NCBI GenBank assembly: GCA_913009265.1
Contig: CAJVYL010000002.1
Coordinates: forward strand, 1 to 47,175
Direction: 5' to 3'
Length of the DNA: 47,175 nucleotides
Origin: an uncultured Methylococcales bacterium
GTDB lineage: Bacteria > Pseudomonadota > Gammaproteobacteria > Methylococcales > Methylomonadaceae
Part shown: positions 9,703-30,213 of the stretch, one piece after another
Position numbering within the stretch: the stretch's first letter is position 1
How the letters are laid out: every line of letters begins with the position of its first letter
The notes under the pieces: generated by a model
Databases searched by the model: none
What the model was told of the DNA's origin: nothing
Seen by the model: the letters and a program-made list of their open reading frames with translations, nothing else
Translations under genes and position numbers: made by a program

Positions 9703-12700
9703 ATGAAAATACTTAATATTTATTTCAAAAATATAAATTCGCTTGAAGGAGAAAGCCGAATTCATTTTGATAAAGCTCCAATAGTTGATGGCGGTGTTTT
9801 TGCAATTACAGGGCCAAATGGATCGGGGAAATCTAGTGTTTTAGATGCTATTACCTTAGGCCTGTATGGTGAAACCTTTCGTTTTGACAGACCTGCTGAA
9901 CATGTAATGACTAAGTCTACTGCAGACAGTTTTGCTGAAGTTGAGTTTGAATTAGCCAAAGACAAATATAAGGCAACGTGGCGTGTTGCTAGAGCCGATG
10001 GAAATGCCAGTGGAGAGCTGCTACCTGCTGAAATGAAATTGATCCATTTAAATGGATCAGAGACAGTTTTAGAAGAGAACGTACAAAAAGTGCGAGAAAA
10101 AATGCTTGAATTAACAGGCATGGATTTTCATAAGTTCAGTAAGTCGATGGTATTGGCGCAAGGTGATTTTGCAGCCTTTTTAAATGCCTTGGATAGTGAA
10201 CGCATGGATATACTGGAAAAAATCAGTGGTAACGATATTTATCAGGAATATGCCCAGCAAGCGGAAGAAAAATATAGTCAGGCACAAATACGTTTACAGC
10301 AATTAGAACAAGATCTTTCGGCTACACCTGTGATGGATCAAGTAGCAATAGAAGCTAGTCAGCATGATTTAGAAGACTTTAAAGAACAGCAAACTGAGTT
10401 AATAACAGAGCAAGACGAAATTGAGCAAAAACTTAATTGGGTGCAAAATATTTCTAGCTTGGAAAAGCAGGCCGTATCTTTAGAAAAGCAGCAAAAAGAT
10501 ATAGAGGGGCAACAAGGTGATAACGAAAAAAACCTTGATAAAGTTAAAGCCTCAAAAAACATATTGGTTTTTGAAGAAGACCTAGCAACCCTAGATAAAA
10601 AATCGGAAGCGATAAAGCAAAGCGAAAAAACCTTGGATTCTTATCGGGGTGAAGTGGAAATGCTGCAAACGCAGCTTAAGTCCTCTCCTTTTGATGAGAA
10701 AACTGCTAATACATCGCTTACTATTTCACAGCAAAAAGCAGAAATTGATCAGCTAAATATTAAGTTAGGCGAGCTAAAATATTCTTTGCCAAAAGAAAGC
10801 ACATTATTGCAATCATTAGAACAACAAAAAGAGCAACAAAGTACCGCCTTAGTGCAATTAGAGTCATGGATTCAAACACATGCTGCGGATAAAACATTAT
10901 TAGACAACTTTCCAGAAATAGCAAAACTAAGAGAAGTAAGAAGTGAGTTGTCGGAAGCCACGGAAAAACAAAGTTCAAGCTCAAAATACATAAGCAATAT
11001 AACTAAGACTTTAGAGAATAAGAAAAAGGAAGTTAAAGCTTTAAAGCAGAAAGGTGAGCAATTAAAAATTGATATAGCAGAAAATGAAACATCATTTAAA
11101 GTGCTTGCAGATGGCAATTCTTTGGAAGAATTACAAGAATTAAAAGCGGAGCAACAACAGCGAGTTCTTGATTACCAAGAGTTACTTGATTTAGCTGCTG
11201 TTAACAGCAAGTTAGGCAAAAAAGGTTTCTTTGGACAGTTTTTTGGCTCTAAAAATGAAGATAAAGAAGAAGCTCTGCTAAAAAAAGAGCATGAGCTATT
11301 ACAGCTGGAAATAGGTCGTGAGAAAAACCTCATTACAACATTAGAAGCCGCTGTTTCTAATGAAGCATTGTTAAAAAAGATGGAGGCAGACAGAACCAAG
11401 TTAATTGATGGAAAGGCTTGTCCCTTATGTGGCGCACTGGAACACCCTTATGCGAAACATACGCCAGCGGTATCAAATTCAAAACAGATTTTAAAAGATC
11501 AGCAAAAGAAAATAAAATCCTTAGTTGTTGATGAGATAGCTTTAAGTAAACAAATTGTCTTGGCTAAGAAACAAGTGGTGCAAAGTGAGCAAAAAGACGA
11601 TAAATTAAAAAATGTATGTGCTCAATGGAATGCTTTAGCAAATAGGTTAAATGCTTTTAGTTTAGATTTAACCATTGAGAACCTTTCTTTAATGAAAAAC
11701 CTAGTTAAAACAGAAAAGAAAGAACTTAATGATATTACTAATCTGCTAAAAAGGACGTCTAAGCTACAGGCAACAGGTACTGATGCAAAGGGGACTATTG
11801 CTACAAATGAAGCATCGATAGAAAGAACAGCTAAAGAATTGGAAGGTTTAACGGCCGAGTGGGAAAACCGTCCAAAAGATACTGATGAGATCGAAAAGAC
11901 TTATAAGGAAGTAGCTGAGCGAGAAAAAGCCTTGTCAGATAAGGTAGAGAAACAATTGGAATTGTTGGGTGAAAAAATGCCCAAAAAATCAAAAGAAGAA
12001 GCTTTTTTTAAGTTGTTAAATGATCGTAAACAAGAGTACCTTAAACAGACTCAAGCTTTGGCGCCTTTAACAGAAGAGATCAAAAAGTTAGATGAAGCGA
12101 TAAAAACAAGTTCTGAAAAAATAAATAGCTTTAATAAGGATATTCAAAAATACTCAAGTGATGTCCAGCAACAAGAAGGTGCAGGAGCACACCTGGCTTT
12201 AACAGAAAAGCAAAAATTAATTGCAGATAAAGAAGTCGCCTTTAATCAGCAAGAAAGTGAGTTAGATGCTTTTAAGCAAAGCTTGCAAGAGAAGGTTAAG
12301 CAAACTGCGGCAATTGATTTATCAGCCTTAAGAGAGACATTGAACTTTGTTCGTAGTGAGGATGCTCTACAGCAAAAGCATCAACAGCTAACTGAAAAGC
12401 TGCTTGAACTGAATAATAAGCAGGATGAATTAGCGACACAGTTAAAAGTAGAGCAAGAGCTTGCAGTAACCACAGAAACAGAATATGACCTGACAGGCAA
12501 GAAAAGTGTTGTTAAACGAAAGTTAGATATTGCTAAGCAAGAAGTTTTAACAATACAGAATAAACTGGATAAGCAAGATAGTTTGCAGCAAAAACAACAG
12601 GGTCTTGTCGATAAAATTGCTGACCAGAAAGTTGAATTAGCTGTGTGTGAAGCAGATAGAAATTCAGTTTCATCAGAAGGTAATATGGACTTTAGACGTA

Positions 12701-13146
12701 AAGTGCAGCAAATTATTTCTGATAAGTTGATGGGGCAAACAAACCAGATACTAGAAAAAATTAGTGGCCGCTATTATGTACGAAAAGTAGAAAGCGAGCA
12801 CGGCTTGGCACTAGAGATAGAAGATACGAAACAGCAAAATGTTCGTCGATTACCTAAAACATTGTCGGGAGGGGAAAGCTTTATTGTGAGTCTTTCTTTG
12901 GCATTAGGCTTGGCAGAAATGTCTAATAATGGTCATGCGGTAGATTCTTTGTTTCTAGATGAAGGTTTTGGTAATTTAGATGCAGAGTCACTGTACTTAG
13001 CGATGACAGCGTTAGAAAATCTACAAACACATGGTAAGGTCGTAGGCGTTATTTCTCATGTGGAAGGTGTTCAAAAAAGGATTAAAACCCAGATTGAGAT
13101 GAGTAAAAAGCCTAATGGCTTGAGTGCTTTAAAAATGGTTTCTTAG
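9703..13146 (+). CDS. sbcC: SbcC-like AAA ATPase/exonuclease subunit
   Basis: 1147 aa; Walker A GPNGSGKSS, zinc hook CPLCGALEHPY within coiled coil, signature LSGGESFIVSLSLALGLAEM, Walker B LFLDEGFGNLD. Confidence 0.9.
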   Translation: MKILNIYFKNINSLEGESRIHFDKAPIVDGGVFAITGPNGSGKSSVLDAITLGLYGETFRFDRPAEHVMTKSTADSFAEVEFELAKDKYKATWRVARADGNASGELLPAEMKLIHLNGSETVLEENVQKVREKMLELTGMDFHKFSKSMVLAQGDFAAFLNALDSERMDILEKISGNDIYQEYAQQAEEKYSQAQIRLQQLEQDLSATPVMDQVAIEASQHDLEDFKEQQTELITEQDEIEQKLNWVQNISSLEKQAVSLEKQQKDIEGQQGDNEKNLDKVKASKNILVFEEDLATLDKKSEAIKQSEKTLDSYRGEVEMLQTQLKSSPFDEKTANTSLTISQQKAEIDQLNIKLGELKYSLPKESTLLQSLEQQKEQQSTALVQLESWIQTHAADKTLLDNFPEIAKLREVRSELSEATEKQSSSSKYISNITKTLENKKKEVKALKQKGEQLKIDIAENETSFKVLADGNSLEELQELKAEQQQRVLDYQELLDLAAVNSKLGKKGFFGQFFGSKNEDKEEALLKKEHELLQLEIGREKNLITTLEAAVSNEALLKKMEADRTKLIDGKACPLCGALEHPYAKHTPAVSNSKQILKDQQKKIKSLVVDEIALSKQIVLAKKQVVQSEQKDDKLKNVCAQWNALANRLNAFSLDLTIENLSLMKNLVKTEKKELNDITNLLKRTSKLQATGTDAKGTIATNEASIERTAKELEGLTAEWENRPKDTDEIEKTYKEVAEREKALSDKVEKQLELLGEKMPKKSKEEAFFKLLNDRKQEYLKQTQALAPLTEEIKKLDEAIKTSSEKINSFNKDIQKYSSDVQQQEGAGAHLALTEKQKLIADKEVAFNQQESELDAFKQSLQEKVKQTAAIDLSALRETLNFVRSEDALQQKHQQLTEKLLELNNKQDELATQLKVEQELAVTTETEYDLTGKKSVVKRKLDIAKQEVLTIQNKLDKQDSLQQKQQGLVDKIADQKVELAVCEADRNSVSSEGNMDFRRKVQQIISDKLMGQTNQILEKISGRYYVRKVESEHGLALEIEDTKQQNVRRLPKTLSGGESFIVSLSLALGLAEMSNNGHAVDSLFLDEGFGNLDAESLYLAMTALENLQTHGKVVGVISHVEGVQKRIKTQIEMSKKPNGLSALKMVS

Positions 13147-22854: not shown

Positions 22855-22907
22855 GGAAGTGAGGCTTTAGCCTCGCCTGAATTGTGCGAGGCTAAAGCCT
22901 CACTTCC
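22855..22907. repeat. Perfect 22-bp hairpin (GGAAGTGAGGCTTTAGCCTCGC / GCGAGGCTAAAGCCTCACTTCC)
   Basis: 9-nt loop; carries AGGCTAAAGCCT core shared with other REP-like hairpins. Confidence 0.9.
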
Positions 22908-23038
22908 AACGATAAGCTGTGGTTTATTAATAACCACGTAAAGGAATTTATGTATATTAACTCTCTAGTGAGTAAGGAATAACTGATAAGGATTTGTCAT
23001 ATTGAATCACCCTGATTTATTCAGGATAAGGTGTATAT

Positions 23039-24688
23039 ATGATTAAACACATTGCTCAAAAAGCTGTACTGATTTATCCAGAGTTTGATACTCAGAATAC
23101 TTTTTGGAGCTATTCTACGAGCTTAAAATTATATGCTCCTGCCAATGAATTTGGTATGCCTAAAAGGGTATTACCACCTTTAGGATTGATGGGATTATTT
23201 AATCACCTTAAACCTTATTATCAATGCTTGTCTTTAGTCGATAAAAATATCGACCCTCGCCCCTTAAAAGAATTAATTAGTGATGCTGACCATGTCTTTA
23301 TTGGCGGTATGTTAGCCCAAGAACAGAGCTTATTAAGACTTGCTATAGAAGTAAAACAGCTGAAAAAACTTTTAATCGTTGGAGGCACAGTTGTTACGCC
23401 TCAATCTCCTTTAGTCGCAATAGCTGATCATTTAATCGAAAATGAAGCAGAAGGGGTGATTGATCAATTATTGCAAGATATAAGGTCTGCTGAAGCAAAA
23501 AAATACTATAAAGGTTTTACTGTTCCCCCTGAACAGTTTTTTCAACCTGATTATGCTTCCATCAATATGCAAAATTATATGCATATGGCCGTTCAGATTA
23601 GTCGAGGTTGTCCAGAAAAGTGTGAATTTTGCGATATTCCGCTACGTTTTGGTAAAGCCTACCGCGTTACACCTTTCGATCAAACAGAAAAATCCTTTAG
23701 ACAGATGAAAGAGTTAGGCTGGACAGGACAAGTGTTTGTGGTTGACGATAATTTTATTGCTAACCCTAAAAAAACATTAGCTGTTTTGAAAAACCTATAT
23801 CAAATAGGTGAGAAAATTGGCTACCACCATCCCAAATATACCGAATTGACCCTGCGTCTTGCTGATGATTCTCCTATCATGCATGAATTGAGACATTGGT
23901 TCCATAAAGCTCATTTTATTAATGGCTTTTATGGTGTAGAAACACCAAATAAAGCTTCATTAGAGGAAACAAAAAAGACTCAGAATTTACGTGGTGAACG
24001 AAGTTTGGTTGAAAAGTTAAACTATATTTCTGAACAAACTGGGGCTGGTGTAATGATGGGAATGATTTATGGTTTCGATCATGATACTAGTGCTACGGTG
24101 GATGAGTTTGTTGATTTTGTAAATACTACAAATGCGCCTATTGTAATGGCTGGGCTATTAAATGCGTTGCCTTTTACGGGGTTAATGGCAAGATTAGAAA
24201 AAGCAGGACGCACTATTCAAAACAGCAGTGGTAATAATTCTGATGGAATTATTAATTTTATTCCTTATCATTTGTCGATTAAACAAGCGGAACAAAATTA
24301 TTTACGTATCTTGCAAGGTATTTATCATCCACAGGCATATTTTGATCGGGTTCTGAGGCATTTAAAACTAATAGACCCAAGTTTACAAAGTGATTATCGT
24401 GATGCTAGTAGTAACTTAATACAATTAGTAAAAATTCTGACTCGAAAAAATGCACTTACTTTTTGGTATTATTTACCTAGAGTACTGGCAATTTCCTATA
24501 AACGCGGTAGACCTGATCGTTCTAAATATAAAGTTATATTGGCTGAGTATTTCTCATTGTGTGGTCAATACACACATTTTGCTGCACAAGTGAAGGTACA
24601 AGAACAGCAAATTTCTAAACGTGATTATGCCAAATATCAGCTTATATCATGGAGTGAATCTTTGGCAATAAAACGGGAGGCTAAGTGA
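23039..24688 (+). CDS. B12-binding-domain radical SAM protein (DUF4070-type)
   Basis: 549 aa; SRGCPEKCEFCDI (CX3CX2C), VFVVDDNFIANPKK; N-terminal cobalamin-binding-like region (IGGMLAQE, IVGGTVVTP). Confidence 0.85.
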   Translation: MIKHIAQKAVLIYPEFDTQNTFWSYSTSLKLYAPANEFGMPKRVLPPLGLMGLFNHLKPYYQCLSLVDKNIDPRPLKELISDADHVFIGGMLAQEQSLLRLAIEVKQLKKLLIVGGTVVTPQSPLVAIADHLIENEAEGVIDQLLQDIRSAEAKKYYKGFTVPPEQFFQPDYASINMQNYMHMAVQISRGCPEKCEFCDIPLRFGKAYRVTPFDQTEKSFRQMKELGWTGQVFVVDDNFIANPKKTLAVLKNLYQIGEKIGYHHPKYTELTLRLADDSPIMHELRHWFHKAHFINGFYGVETPNKASLEETKKTQNLRGERSLVEKLNYISEQTGAGVMMGMIYGFDHDTSATVDEFVDFVNTTNAPIVMAGLLNALPFTGLMARLEKAGRTIQNSSGNNSDGIINFIPYHLSIKQAEQNYLRILQGIYHPQAYFDRVLRHLKLIDPSLQSDYRDASSNLIQLVKILTRKNALTFWYYLPRVLAISYKRGRPDRSKYKVILAEYFSLCGQYTHFAAQVKVQEQQISKRDYAKYQLISWSESLAIKREAK

Positions 24689-26442
24689 AAAAATATTATA
24701 TTGGTCTTTCAATTACCTACCATGACCCTGCATTAGCCATTATTGACCAGAGCGGGCAGGTGGTTTTTGCAGAAGCAACTGAACGATATATGCAAAACAA
24801 AAGGGCTCTCAATTGTCCGGCTGATCCGTTACTGTATATGAAAGAGTTATTAACTCAATATTGTGCAGATGCTGATGAAATTGTTATTGCTATTAATTGG
24901 AAAAGAAAACGTCCCTTATATGAAAATATTATTTCAGCTTTAGGATGTTTAAAGGCATCTGGTTTAACCAAAGTGGGTATAAAAAAGCTTAGGTCTCCTC
25001 TAAAAAACTATCAGTTGCATCATATGATTGCCAGTCAGCGTAATAATATTGCCAGTGCTGGTCTTAATCTTGTACGTATCATTACTGAGCATTACCCCAA
25101 CTGTATTGTTTCTCACGCTGATTTTGATCATCATTTAACACATGCTGCAACTGCCAGTTATAGTAGCCCATATACAGAAGCGGCTTGTGCTGTTATTGAT
25201 TCGTTTGGAGAAAAGGGATCAATGGCTTTTTATCATTTTAAAAATCAAAAATTAACATGCCTTTATGAAAGTAAAGGGACGGGGAGTCTTGGTTTTTATT
25301 ATATGAAAATTACTGAATTATGTGGCTTCGATTGGTTAAAAGGTGAAGAATGGAAAGTAATGGGTTTAGCCTCATACGGAAAACTTAATTTAAAACTCTA
25401 TGAGTTATTAAAATCTACTATTTCAGTACAAGGCTTTAAGTGTGAGCATGACTCAAAAAAACTATTTATTAGCATTGAAGCACTACAAGAATTTAATAGA
25501 AAAGAAAATCAGTCTATAGAGCATGCAGCTGATCTAGCTTATACAGGCCAGTATTTCTTTACTGAATTAATGACTGAGTTATTACAACATTTACAGAAAG
25601 TGACGGCGAGTAAAAACCTAGCGTTAGGTGGTGGCTGTGCTTTAAATTCAGCCTTTAATGGGATGATTAAACAGCGTACAAATTTTGAACAGGTATTTAT
25701 CCCTTCAGCCCCGGCAGATGATGGCACAGCATTAGGAGCAGCATGGCTTGCTTTGCACAATGATAAACCTGCATTATCGCTAAATACCGAAAAACAAATA
25801 TTATCACCTTATTTAGGTTCAAAAATAAGTAATGATGCTGTTGCACGCTTGATTAAATATAATCGTAGTTTGGATATCCAGCATTTACCTAACAGCATTT
25901 GTAGTGAAACAGCAAAATTATTGGCAGAAGGGGAGTTAGTTGCTTGGGTACAAGACAGGGCAGAATATGGACCCAGAGCATTAGGTAATCGTTCAATTTT
26001 GGCAGACCCTCGGCAAGCTGAAATAAAAGATAATATTAATCAAAAGATTAAGTTCAGAGAAAATTTTAGGCCTTTTGCCCCCTCTGTTTTACATCAATAT
26101 GCAGCTGATTATTTTGAAGGTTATCATCAATCGCCTTATATGGATAAAACACTGAAGATTCGTGAATCTATGCAACACAAAATACCAGCTGTTTGTCATG
26201 TTGATGGAACAGGGCGGTTACAAACTGTTAAGCAGGAATGGAATCCACGGTTTTATAATTTGATTGACAGCTTTTATCAATTAACTCATGTCCCTATTCT
26301 GTTGAATACTAGTTTTAATGTGATGGGGAAGCCCCTGGTGCATTCATTAGATGATGCAATTGCAGTGTTTTTATCGACAGGTTTGGATGCTTTAGTTGTA
26401 AATGATTATTTGATTCGTAAACCTGAGCATGCAAAAGTTTAA
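24685..26442 (+). CDS. Carbamoyltransferase (NodU/CmcH/TobZ family)
   Basis: 585 aa; HHLTHAATASYSSPY, ALGGGCALNSAFNG, AEYGPRALGNRSILADPR, LLNTSFNVMGKPLV; GTGA overlap with the upstream gene. Confidence 0.9.
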   Translation: MKKYYIGLSITYHDPALAIIDQSGQVVFAEATERYMQNKRALNCPADPLLYMKELLTQYCADADEIVIAINWKRKRPLYENIISALGCLKASGLTKVGIKKLRSPLKNYQLHHMIASQRNNIASAGLNLVRIITEHYPNCIVSHADFDHHLTHAATASYSSPYTEAACAVIDSFGEKGSMAFYHFKNQKLTCLYESKGTGSLGFYYMKITELCGFDWLKGEEWKVMGLASYGKLNLKLYELLKSTISVQGFKCEHDSKKLFISIEALQEFNRKENQSIEHAADLAYTGQYFFTELMTELLQHLQKVTASKNLALGGGCALNSAFNGMIKQRTNFEQVFIPSAPADDGTALGAAWLALHNDKPALSLNTEKQILSPYLGSKISNDAVARLIKYNRSLDIQHLPNSICSETAKLLAEGELVAWVQDRAEYGPRALGNRSILADPRQAEIKDNINQKIKFRENFRPFAPSVLHQYAADYFEGYHQSPYMDKTLKIRESMQHKIPAVCHVDGTGRLQTVKQEWNPRFYNLIDSFYQLTHVPILLNTSFNVMGKPLVHSLDDAIAVFLSTGLDALVVNDYLIRKPEHAKV

Positions 26443-28558
26443 GCAGCCTTTTGATCCTGATCTTTTGTCTGTTTATAACAGAGGAAATCATTCTGAGAAT
26501 AACTTAGATAGTCGGTGGTTGTTTTATCAATTAAATAAAATTAAGAATAAATCTGAAGTTATTCCTGTAGCTTATCAGTTTGTTGTTCAAGGTTTAAAGC
26601 AGGCAGAGCAACAATATTCCCAATCATTTATTCCACAATATAGTGTAGAAAGCCTAACTGCTTTACAACCTCTAAATATTGGTGCTTTATCGGAGCAATT
26701 GTTAACAGAGAAAAGTTTTCGCGAATGTATTTGGCAATTCTCAACTGTTCAATTAACTCAACCTTGTTGGTTGCAGAATATTTCACAAATTTCGTGTTGT
26801 CAGTCAAAAATAGCGGTGAAATTAATGCAGATATATTTACAGTTAACTCAAAAAGGAGAGCTAAATAATTTATATCACTCTTTGTTGCTAACACAGGGGA
26901 TAAAAAGTCCTGTGTTATATAACTATCAGTATCATCAGAAAGTTGATATTTCTACTGGTTTTATTGATTTTTCTACAACACAACAAGCCTTATCTTGCTT
27001 TCCCCGTGTATTTTTTGCAGAAATTTTGGGTTTTACATTGGCTTATATGTTGATGCCTTCATTGATCGAAACTTGTTTCCCTGATGAGAAAGTGCCATCT
27101 GCATTTTTTAAACAGCGAAAGATAATTTTACAGAAGCAGTTGGCGCCTTTGCTTAAATGTATTTGTGATTATTTGGATTTATATCCACAACATAAGCAAA
27201 TATTATGGCATCGGCTACAAACAGGCTTTTGGCTTTATCAATTACGAATGCAACAATGCAGGGATCAATTTAGTATAAGAGCTGAAGAGCTACATTCACC
27301 ATTGTTGGCAGTTAGTAAGCTATTCCAGAATAAGCTGGCATCAGCAATGGGGCATCATCATAAAGTATTGTTACAAGGAGTCTCTTTAGAGCAGTGGTTT
27401 GCTGAAATGCCAGAAAATAATTTAGTCTTTCTTCAAGCGTTAAAGCAGTCTCACTATGTAGATAATGACAATGTATTAAATAGTCGCTTACTAAAACTAT
27501 TTAAGTTTAAAGGGCCTATGTTTGGTGTTCTTGATCAATCAGAAATATGTATTTTAGAAAACTGGTTATTAAATGAAGAAAATGATGATCATCATCAGTT
27601 AAAAACACCTCAGAACAACGCCCTTAAATTATCAATAGCTTCAATCACTAACAAAAAAGTATTAATAAACTATGAGAAATTATCTAATAGAGAGCTCTAC
27701 TATTATTTGGTAAATGCTGACTTATATCCTGATGTGTTCTCAGCCGCTAAAGTAAAGGTAGAGATGTTATTACAATTAAATACATTATTTAATAAATTAC
27801 CTTTTAAAAGCTATAGCCATCAACAATTTGATGATTTTATAAGTAATATTTATCAAACAGAAATTAGGGCTTATCAACCATTAATAGGAGAACCCCGAAT
27901 ATCAAAATCAGCTTATATTTGGGGGATAGAACAAATAGCACCGATGATTTTAATTGATGGTTGCTGGTTGCAGAACTGTCATGACATACAATATACCCAC
28001 CCTGAAATTTATCAGATTATGTTCAGTATATATGCTGATGAAATAGGTAATGGGCATAGGCAACAGAATCACTGTTATATTTTTCAACAGCTATTAAAAA
28101 GCTTATCTATTGATGTGCCTCCTGTATATAGTAAAGCAATTACTCAACAGGCAAACTTTATAAATAGTGCCTTTGATTTGCCTACTTATATGCTGGCTCT
28201 CTCCTTACATACCCAGCAATTTTTACCTGAACTTTTAGGTTTAAATATGGCGATTGAGCTTAGTGGATTAGGTAAAGAGTATCTACAATTAATTGATGAA
28301 TGGAATTATTGGGGGATAGATACCACCATAGCCAATATTCATGTCTCAATTGATAACTATGCAGAGGGGCATACTTTTTTAGCAAAGAAAGCTATTCAAT
28401 TATATTTAGATGATATTTTGAACAGCACGGGGGATTCTAAAGTTGTTGATAAACATTGGAAACGAATTTATAAGGGATATACATCCTTACGTTTTGTGGG
28501 GACTCGTTTTAAATTTGCATTGCCTGTTTATTACATGATGAATAAGCTTAAACCTTAG
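26429..28558 (+). CDS. Iron-containing redox enzyme family protein (haem-oxygenase-like diiron oxidase C-terminal domain)
   Basis: 709 aa; YADEIGNGHRQQNHCYIF, ELLGLNMAIELSGLGKEY, HVSIDNYAEGHTFLAKKAI resemble HDO ligand motifs; 14-nt overlap with the upstream gene. Confidence 0.72.
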   Translation: MQKFKQPFDPDLLSVYNRGNHSENNLDSRWLFYQLNKIKNKSEVIPVAYQFVVQGLKQAEQQYSQSFIPQYSVESLTALQPLNIGALSEQLLTEKSFRECIWQFSTVQLTQPCWLQNISQISCCQSKIAVKLMQIYLQLTQKGELNNLYHSLLLTQGIKSPVLYNYQYHQKVDISTGFIDFSTTQQALSCFPRVFFAEILGFTLAYMLMPSLIETCFPDEKVPSAFFKQRKIILQKQLAPLLKCICDYLDLYPQHKQILWHRLQTGFWLYQLRMQQCRDQFSIRAEELHSPLLAVSKLFQNKLASAMGHHHKVLLQGVSLEQWFAEMPENNLVFLQALKQSHYVDNDNVLNSRLLKLFKFKGPMFGVLDQSEICILENWLLNEENDDHHQLKTPQNNALKLSIASITNKKVLINYEKLSNRELYYYLVNADLYPDVFSAAKVKVEMLLQLNTLFNKLPFKSYSHQQFDDFISNIYQTEIRAYQPLIGEPRISKSAYIWGIEQIAPMILIDGCWLQNCHDIQYTHPEIYQIMFSIYADEIGNGHRQQNHCYIFQQLLKSLSIDVPPVYSKAITQQANFINSAFDLPTYMLALSLHTQQFLPELLGLNMAIELSGLGKEYLQLIDEWNYWGIDTTIANIHVSIDNYAEGHTFLAKKAIQLYLDDILNSTGDSKVVDKHWKRIYKGYTSLRFVGTRFKFALPVYYMMNKLKP

Positions 28559-28572
28559 TAGGTGTTTGATTA

Positions 28573-29622
28573 ATGCAGCATTTAAAGTATTTACTAAGTT
28601 TATTTTTCCCTTTATCAGTAGTAGGTTTTTTATATACAGGGCCTCATGACATATTAACAGCATTAATATGGACTACCCCTCTTTGGGCTTTAATTATATT
28701 TGACTGGTTAAGCCCAAATATAAACCCAAATGAGCGTAAAACTCAAGGGCCTAGCTGGTTTTACGATTCTCTTCTCTATCTTTTATGTTTTTTACAGTTT
28801 TTGATTATTAGTTTGCTTTTGATTGATGCTAGTCAATTGCAATGGAATTCAATAAATGATCAGTTTACTTCCATTATTAACCTTATAGTTATGAGGATAC
28901 TTGTAGGTACGAGCTCTGGAAGTTCTGCGATTATTGTTGCCCATGAATTAATCCATCGATCATCAAAGGTGCAACGCTTACTCGGGCAGTTATTGTTATA
29001 TACCGTGTGTTATGAGCACTTTAGAATTACACATTTGCGAGAACATCACCTTAGAGTAGCAACAGCTGAAGATATAAGCACAGCACGGATAGACGAAAGT
29101 TTTAAAACTTACTGGAAAAGAGTGACTATTGGCCACTTTAAATATGCCTGGAACTCTGAAATATCTCGCTTAAAGTTACAGAGTACTCCTAAATATCACT
29201 ATAAAATGTTAAAAAACTTAGTTCTTCAAGGCGTTATTGTAGAAATTGTAATGCTTGTCTTGATAGCAACTTTTTTTGGTTGGGCAGCTGTTATTGTTTT
29301 TATCTATCAAGCATTTTCGGCTGTTCGTTTGTTAGAAACCATTAATTATTATCAACATTGGGGTTTACAGCAGGGTAAGTCTGTCAATAGTTTGGCTTGG
29401 GTTAATCAATCCCAAGTAACAGAATATGCACTAATAGGGCTTCCCAATCATATAGAACATCATAAAAACGCTAAAACACCTTTCTATCAAACTGCTTATT
29501 CAAGCTCAGGCCCAATCATGCCCTATGGATATTTTGTGAGTAATCTTTGGGTTAAATTGAATAATTTATCTTATAAAAAAGATTGTACTGAACGCTTAAA
29601 AAATATTCTTCCTTCTGAATAA
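28573..29622 (+). CDS. AlkB-like membrane diiron alkane hydroxylase / fatty-acid desaturase superfamily
   Basis: HELIHR, HLREHHLRVATAEDISTA, NYYQHWGL, LPNHIEHHKNAKTPFYQ histidine motifs; multiple TM helices. Confidence 0.85.
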   Translation: MQHLKYLLSLFFPLSVVGFLYTGPHDILTALIWTTPLWALIIFDWLSPNINPNERKTQGPSWFYDSLLYLLCFLQFLIISLLLIDASQLQWNSINDQFTSIINLIVMRILVGTSSGSSAIIVAHELIHRSSKVQRLLGQLLLYTVCYEHFRITHLREHHLRVATAEDISTARIDESFKTYWKRVTIGHFKYAWNSEISRLKLQSTPKYHYKMLKNLVLQGVIVEIVMLVLIATFFGWAAVIVFIYQAFSAVRLLETINYYQHWGLQQGKSVNSLAWVNQSQVTEYALIGLPNHIEHHKNAKTPFYQTAYSSSGPIMPYGYFVSNLWVKLNNLSYKKDCTERLKNILPSE

Positions 29623-29653: not shown

Positions 29654-29679
29654 CCCTATTTTATGTGAGATAAATAGGG
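29654..29679 (+). terminator. Putative terminator hairpin of the 23.0-29.6 kb operon
   Basis: CCCTATTT / AAATAGGG 8-bp arms followed by a T-rich stretch (GGTTTTGTTTTTCC). Confidence 0.5.
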
Positions 29680-29760
29680 TGAGGTTTTGTTTTTCCTATC
29701 ATAAAAATAAATGGGTTTCAATAAAACCGTTGTTTTTATTCCAATGAGGAGGAAATAAAG

Positions 29761-30213
29761 ATGAAACATATTAAAAAGACAATTCAGAGATTAATATCAT
29801 TATTAATTCTAATGATGTTATTTGGGTATAGCTCAACTGTATCTGCCAAGATAGAGGGATGTTGGGCTGAATTTTATGAAGATGCTCAATTTAAAGGGGA
29901 AAGCTTTCGTCTACAAGGGCCTTCATTCAAAAGAAATTTAGTTAAAGAGCAAGGGAAGAACTGGGACAAAAGAATTGAAAGTATTTTAATTGGCCCTAAA
30001 GCAACCGTCACAGTATTTGAAAACAAGAATTTTAAGTTAACATTAAAAGAGATGGCTAAACATCCTGTGTTAATGAAATCTTTAGGTATTACTAAGCAAG
30101 ACATACTTGAGGATTCGGAAATTATTCTACATCCAGATTCTAAAATCCATAGCTTTGGAGAGTATAATTTTTATCACAAAATACGTTCATTAAAAGTTGA
30201 ATGTAAGTATTAG
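29761..30213 (+). CDS. Secreted beta/gamma-crystallin-like protein
   Basis: Signal peptide (…YSSTVSA/K), CWAEFYEDAQFKGESFRLQGP Greek-key-like motif. Confidence 0.6.
   Translation: MKHIKKTIQRLISLLILMMLFGYSSTVSAKIEGCWAEFYEDAQFKGESFRLQGPSFKRNLVKEQGKNWDKRIESILIGPKATVTVFENKNFKLTLKEMAKHPVLMKSLGITKQDILEDSEIILHPDSKIHSFGEYNFYHKIRSLKVECKY

Follow-up and report, generated by a model that had tools for sequence, protein, structure and literature searches.

What might a methanotroph make with an O-carbamoyltransferase, a haem-oxygenase-like diiron protein and an AlkB-like hydroxylase encoded side by side, and do these genes keep company beyond the genome in which they were noticed? The question is raised by a four-gene operon in a 47,175-nucleotide stretch of DNA (contig CAJVYL010000002.1, assembly GCA_913009265.1; hereafter the window) from an uncultured member of the Methylococcales that lies near Methyloprofundus and whose assembly is incomplete (64%). 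The operon encodes, in order, a radical SAM protein of the DUF4070 type, a NodU/CmcH-type O-carbamoyltransferase (CT), a duplicated haem-oxygenase-like diiron oxygenase/oxidase (HDO) and an AlkB-like membrane non-haem diiron hydroxylase. The four enzyme classes had been named in a first-pass annotation of the window, and Pfam and PDB matches agree with that naming; the view that the genes form one operon is upheld. Type I methanotrophs hold back methane that many waters and sediments would otherwise release, and their lipids are the means by which they are traced in the geological record.

Conservation of the gene set

Close relatives of the CT were found in named records from Methyloprofundus, deep-sea metagenome-assembled genomes, sponge and snail symbionts, Methyloglobulus and Crenothrix, and likewise from Methylocaldum, Methylotetracoccus, Methylococcus capsulatus and Methylothermaceae. 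Across 311 Methylococcales genomes, CT, HDO and AlkB were all present in 97 and all absent from 200, the other 14 holding different combinations of the three and being mostly incomplete assemblies. CT-positive genomes were picked manually from the match listing, with orthologue-like matches of ~44% identity or more accepted and fragments counted. Pairwise co-occurrence of the three genes gave Fisher p values of 4e-68 to 5e-71, uncorrected for shared ancestry, and the trio is a gene set far beyond chance. Genera without the trio include g287, probably Methylomonas (a weak identification, from the Methylomonas DH-1 plasmid, which pointed to this genus alone). The plasmid of M. alcaliphilum matched just a related g279 chromosome, at 95%, too little to place that species.

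Co-location in other genomes, which the first-pass annotation had named as a test of its proposal, is borne out: CT, HDO and AlkB lie together in 55 of the 68 Methylococcales loci that were fetched, and loci without the whole trio mostly stop at a contig border. The three genes are colinear in 34 of these 55 loci, whereas AlkB is divergent from the CT–HDO pair in 21; the colinear arrangement is that of one family and the divergent arrangement that of others. A radical SAM gene lies upstream in 13 of the 34 colinear loci, so that all four genes occur in the same order in 13 loci besides the window. In three symbiont-type genomes the CT gene is followed by a peptide deformylase gene and HDO and AlkB are paired on another contig, and in sponge symbionts the radical SAM–CT and HDO–AlkB pairs are on separate contigs, with all parts retained. 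Between-locus distances of the three genes correlate (r 0.93), an agreement also expected from vertical inheritance alone. When neighbouring open reading frames (ORFs) were clustered across 81 loci, no other family turned up next to CT in over 8 of them. The conserved unit is CT–HDO–AlkB, in much of Methylococcales; what stands of the four-gene unit first described is that the genes adjoin, with the radical SAM gene as an optional member.

The radical SAM protein matches PF13282 (DUF4070; E 9e-15) and PF04055 (Radical_SAM; E 8e-7) and has a CxxxCxxC motif at residues 191-198, in which C191, C195, and C198 are invariant. No NCBIfam equivalog met its cut-off, weak matches being scattered across several B12/radical SAM families; there was no Pfam B12-binding match, and the AlphaFold model was poor (pLDDT 61). 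Close orthologues (58-80%) were found in 26 of the 237 genomes of the family, counting that of the window; all 26 fall within its 57 CT-positive genomes (hypergeometric 3.7e-19). They mostly lie directly upstream of CT, with other positions in G564 and G566. Because these orthologues occur just in CT-carrying genomes, the gene is regarded as accessory to the trio, an optional extra restricted to certain genera, and its product is probably a tailoring enzyme, a methylase or similar. Fragments of a radical SAM gene are also present in a genome of the Methyloprofundus group that has no orthologous CT (G571, contig C18), likely a relic of operon loss. Separately, in family f185 (L190, 6224-9781, and L192), a second CT (47%) adjoins another B12-type radical SAM gene (~29%), a distinct pairing of these two classes.

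The diiron protein and the carbamoyltransferase

The HDO protein matches PF14518 (Haem_oxygenas_2; E 6e-13) at residues 502-664, and its N-terminal half is homologous to its C-terminal half (hhalign E 9.5e-39), which reveals an internal duplication. The N-terminal copy is decayed and the C-terminal copy carries the full ligand set. Across 41 sequences, gvg-like, rhizobial and Streptomyces relatives among them, E538, H548, E601, H638, D642, and H648 do not vary, and these residues map to the SznF ligands E215, H225, E281, H311, D315, and H318 (PMC11705231) with equal E-x9-H and H-x3-D spacing. The diiron ligands that had been suggested for this 709-residue protein were thus located, as six SznF-type residues, in the C-terminal half, which probably forms a diiron site; an SznF-type protein would also bind iron and oxidize nitrogen with O2.

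An AlphaFold model of the HDO protein (pLDDT 89.9, pTM 0.86) gave HrmI, SznF, and RohS, all N-oxygenases, as the top PDB matches in Foldseek. A single-sequence search of solved structures returned no match for HDO, and the HDO profile matched RohS weakly (E 0.012) around the E-x9-H motif. SznF, HrmI, and RohS share the fold and the E/H/E/H/D/H ligand set with the window protein; they have one HDO domain, whereas the window protein also has the decayed N-terminal copy and a domain in the middle, and identity is ~11-16%. Another operon-bearing genome (G428; L204, 7275-9602) encodes a further full-length HDO (775 aa, 31%), which is divergent and has no adjoining CT.

The closest parallel to the HDO–CT pairing comes from the gvg cluster of Pseudomonas fluorescens WH6. 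Knockouts of gvgA, of gvgC, which encodes a haem-oxygenase domain, and of the carbamoyltransferase gene gvgF no longer show the antibacterial and herbicidal phenotype due to FVG, a compound that carries an aminooxy group (PMC8067088). The core of gvg-like clusters consists of gvgA, B, C, and F (PMC8064604). A profile of the window protein's relatives covers most of each HDO encoded in gvg-like loci L180-L182, WH6 GvgC itself lying outside the comparison, and these HDOs fall in one tree with the window relatives. In L180-L182 and L193, from other proteobacteria, a full-length HDO adjoins a CT, and in the gvg-like loci the homologous HDO and CT are accompanied by an SGNH-type protein, LysE or a MocR regulator. 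Other HDO homologues have hydrazine-type or SidA N-hydroxylase genes as cluster neighbours. In the accessible part of its description, the azaserine-cluster protein AzsE shares the architecture of the window protein, with a C-terminal HDO domain at 528-706, and is 27% identical to GvgC; it is of the same length as the window protein but belongs to a hydrazone pathway, for which that part mentions no CT (PMC10445470). The class assigned earlier, a haem-oxygenase-like diiron protein, is therefore kept, but the protein is no generic member: it is of the full-length, duplicated GvgC/AzsE type, whose neighbours and fold point to nitrogen oxidation.

The CT itself has both its N- and C-terminal domains (PF16861, Carbam_trans, E 3e-71, and PF02543, E 5e-34), and its PDB matches are NovN (9s2t; E 1e-70), GdmN, and TobZ. 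An HxxxH motif (H149, H153), D172, and D345/D346 are invariant across its clade, and homology together with these conserved residues identifies gene 2 as a NodU/CmcH O-carbamoyltransferase. NovN, GdmN, VtdB, and TobZ share the two domains and the catalytic residues, but the window protein belongs to a distinct clade. In the CT tree, gvg-like CTs split from the Methylococcales CTs as a separate clade (support 100/100, branch 2.6), and the Methylococcales clade also takes in relatives from nonribosomal peptide synthetase (NRPS), polyketide synthase (PKS) and terpenoid clusters. Among these, a related CT (48%) on a Planktothrix agardhii plasmid (L151) is accompanied by a squalene/phytoene synthase, P450s and Rieske oxygenases, in a cluster whose product is probably a carbamoylated triterpenoid or steroid. 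In Chitinophaga and kin (L139, L141-L143, L145, L146, L148, and L149), a related CT lies directly behind a giant NRPS/PKS-like gene.

That the operon encodes the complete gvg amino-acid pathway is hardly credible. The two systems have the HDO and CT classes in common, both pairing a duplicated full-length HDO with a NodU-type CT, but the window CT, at ~30% identity, comes from the other clade, and the locus itself contradicts the idea: homologues of gvgA, gvgH, gvgI and LysE do not recur next to the trio in the 81 loci. The same holds for gvgA-like (SGNH/esterase) families in general; for gvgB, a tiny ORF, no search was made. Compared with gvg-like clusters, the window operon adds AlkB and sometimes the radical SAM gene and has no transporter or regulator genes, and methanotrophs are missing from the gvg-like genera listed in the literature. 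HDOs of this type are partnered by CTs of two clades, and we therefore argue that the HDO reaction and carbamoylation are chemically linked.

Literature searches for the gene combination found no described product or set, nor, in the literature searched, an HDO–CT pair with AlkB, with a CT of the Methylococcales clade, or in methanotrophs. The earlier statement that the combination matches no described pathway thus holds for the CT–HDO–AlkB set and not for the HDO–CT pair, which is known from gvg-like clusters (PMC8064604). The set is strongly conserved and apparently undescribed, a variant of the HDO–carbamoyltransferase pairing with a predicted function. It provides a second natural setting for the question of what GvgC/AzsE-type HDOs do, with another CT clade and another probable kind of substrate.

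Proposed pathway and alternatives

Gene 4 matches Pfam FA_desaturase, and its best PDB match is AlkB (8f6t; E 1.8e-27). The histidines of its HExxH, HxxxHH, NYxxHxGL, and HxxHH motifs are invariant in 12 sequences; the third motif reads NYxQHWG or similar, versus NYxEHYG in the AlkB type. The histidine motifs and the overall match are shared with AlkB alkane 1-monooxygenase (8f6t, 8sbb), from which gene 4 is distant; gene 4 lies in a biosynthetic operon that has no rubredoxin gene. We infer that gene 4 hydroxylates an alkyl or isoprenoid chain, and AlkB homology is what suggests a lipid-like substrate. One could instead take the protein for a membrane fatty-acid desaturase/hydroxylase, involved for example in the unusual 16:1 acids of type I methanotrophs, with CT and HDO modifying the lipid. 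This is improbable, since the FA_desaturase match that invites it is offset by a sequence and motifs of the AlkB type, and the trio is missing from about two thirds of the genomes of an order in which unusual 16:1 acids are widespread.

Our tentative proposal, which unites the observations better than the alternatives do but which we would not yet call probable, is that hydroxylation by AlkB, O-carbamoylation by CT and nitrogen oxidation by HDO are steps of one biosynthetic operon. The AlkB-like enzyme would put a hydroxyl onto an alkyl or isoprenoid chain, and the CT would convert that hydroxyl, its presumed acceptor, to an O-carbamate using carbamoyl phosphate and ATP. The C-terminal diiron site of the HDO would then oxidize the nitrogen of the carbamate, or an amine that arises from it, possibly with a rearrangement that leaves an N–O product, such as an alkoxyamine, by analogy with the aminooxy group of FVG; this conversion of carbamate to alkoxyamine is hypothetical. 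In some genera the radical SAM enzyme would make one further change, probably the addition of a methyl group. Nitrogen oxidation by the HDO is inferred from its kinship with GvgC and AzsE, its CT partners and the N-oxygenase folds. Because HDO type, neighbours and fold point in this direction, the carbamoyl group may be a transformed nitrogen source and not a final decoration.

Several observations weigh against this proposal. The co-occurrence test leaves shared ancestry uncorrected, an objection answered in part because the trio was kept through independent rearrangements. Two USCg-type genomes, G028 and G174, have CT and HDO (their fetched loci also carry pyrroloquinoline quinone alcohol dehydrogenase-like genes; locus L140 is USCg_Taylor), which speaks in favour, but no AlkB at E 1e-5, so that AlkB is not obligatory for the HDO–CT pair everywhere. 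The Foldseek E-values are weak (best 5e-3, probability 1.00), and the methanotroph HDOs are not a resolved single clade in the tree. The operon lacks gvgA, part of the gvg core; no demonstration of any GvgC-type reaction was found in the accessible literature, and the azaserine hydrazone oxidase was still termed unidentified in 2026 (PMC13061610). BesC, CADD, and FlcD also match the HDO fold, at lower rank, and HDO chemistry is varied. Finally, CTs of the same clade belong to NRPS, PKS and terpenoid clusters that have no HDO of this kind.

The last two points equally favour the reading of the first-pass annotation, in which the product retains its O-carbamoyl group, as it presumably does as a final decoration in terpenoid, PKS and NRPS clusters, and the HDO carries out some other O2 reaction on the chain, such as hydroxylation, desaturation or UndA-like decarboxylation to an alkene. 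We consider this somewhat unlikely, given that nitrogen chemistry is indicated both by the HDO type, duplicated and full-length, and by the other genes it is found with, and that the top fold matches are N-oxygenases. The carbamoylation step of that annotation is retained, whereas the carbamoylated end product it foresaw may, with a GvgC/AzsE-type HDO, be transformed; screening for a +43 Da product and nothing else might overlook the end compound.

A known class of carbamate-bearing lipids, the methylcarbamate-aminobacteriohopanepolyols (MC-BHPs) of type I methanotrophs, is a very improbable product. MC-BHPs were reported from all type I strains tested, with a carbamate-containing structure assigned tentatively from mass spectra (PMC5100885). 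However, MC-triol is reported from Methylomonas methanica (PMC5100885), and g287, the probable Methylomonas, has no such CT, HDO or AlkB among the matches listed, while Methylococcus capsulatus, which has the trio (L135), has no MC-pentol (PMC5100885). Moreover, an O-carbamoyltransferase does not directly give R-NH-CO-OCH3.

Taken to its full extent, the nitrogen-oxidation proposal would mean that a large share of gammaproteobacterial methanotrophs make an undescribed N–O-bearing, alkoxyamine-like lipid or isoprenoid. Its nitrogen would come from the carbamoyl group placed on the hydroxyl that AlkB introduces, once the duplicated HDO has converted that group. We hold this extended form to be rather doubtful, more so than the sequence of steps itself. 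Roughly one in three genomes of the order carries the trio, across a range that runs from Methylococcus to deep-sea symbionts; this suggests a metabolite or biomarker that has so far escaped notice, and the operon would offer a handle on enzymatic N–O bond formation from carbamates.

Layout of the locus and its surroundings

ORF positions agree with the earlier description of four forward-strand genes, including the overlaps between genes 1 and 2 (4 nt) and genes 2 and 3 (14 nt) and the 14-nt gap between genes 3 and 4 (Table 1).

Table 1. Coordinates of operon features in the window
Feature	Position	Strand	Remarks
Gene 1, radical SAM protein, DUF4070 type	23039-24688	+	549 aa
Gene 2, NodU/CmcH-type O-carbamoyltransferase (CT)	24685-26442	+	585 aa, GTG start
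Gene 3, duplicated HDO, GvgC/AzsE type	26429-28558	+	709 aa
C-terminal HDO domain with predicted metal ligands, in gene 3	27932-28417	+	residues 502-663
Gene 4, AlkB-like membrane non-haem diiron hydroxylase	28573-29622	+	349 aa
8-bp hairpin, then T-rich tract; possible weak terminator	29654-29694	+	from sequence; absent from terminator scan

The hairpin and T-rich tract reported after gene 4 are both present in the sequence. The arms are CCCTATTT (29654-29661) and AAATAGGG (29672-29679), separated by a loop of 10 nt, and the T-rich tract begins several bases past the stem, at ~29684. A role as terminator is unproven, since the terminator scan did not call the hairpin at 29654-29679 and its three matches in the region do not exceed the number obtained from shuffled sequence.

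PADLOC placed none of the four operon proteins in a defence family. Upstream of the operon is a long inverted repeat (22855-22908) with GTGAGGCTTTAGCCTCGC as one arm (22859-22876) and the reverse complement as the other (22886-22903); it is single in the window and was not found in the fetched loci. Just downstream, positions 29761-30213 encode a small beta/gamma-crystallin-like protein that is probably secreted. Further away, at 9703-13146, lies the gene for a 1147-aa SMC/SbcC-like ATPase that matches LmuB/Lamassu-type and other defence models, and this gene is followed by one for a pentapeptide-repeat protein.

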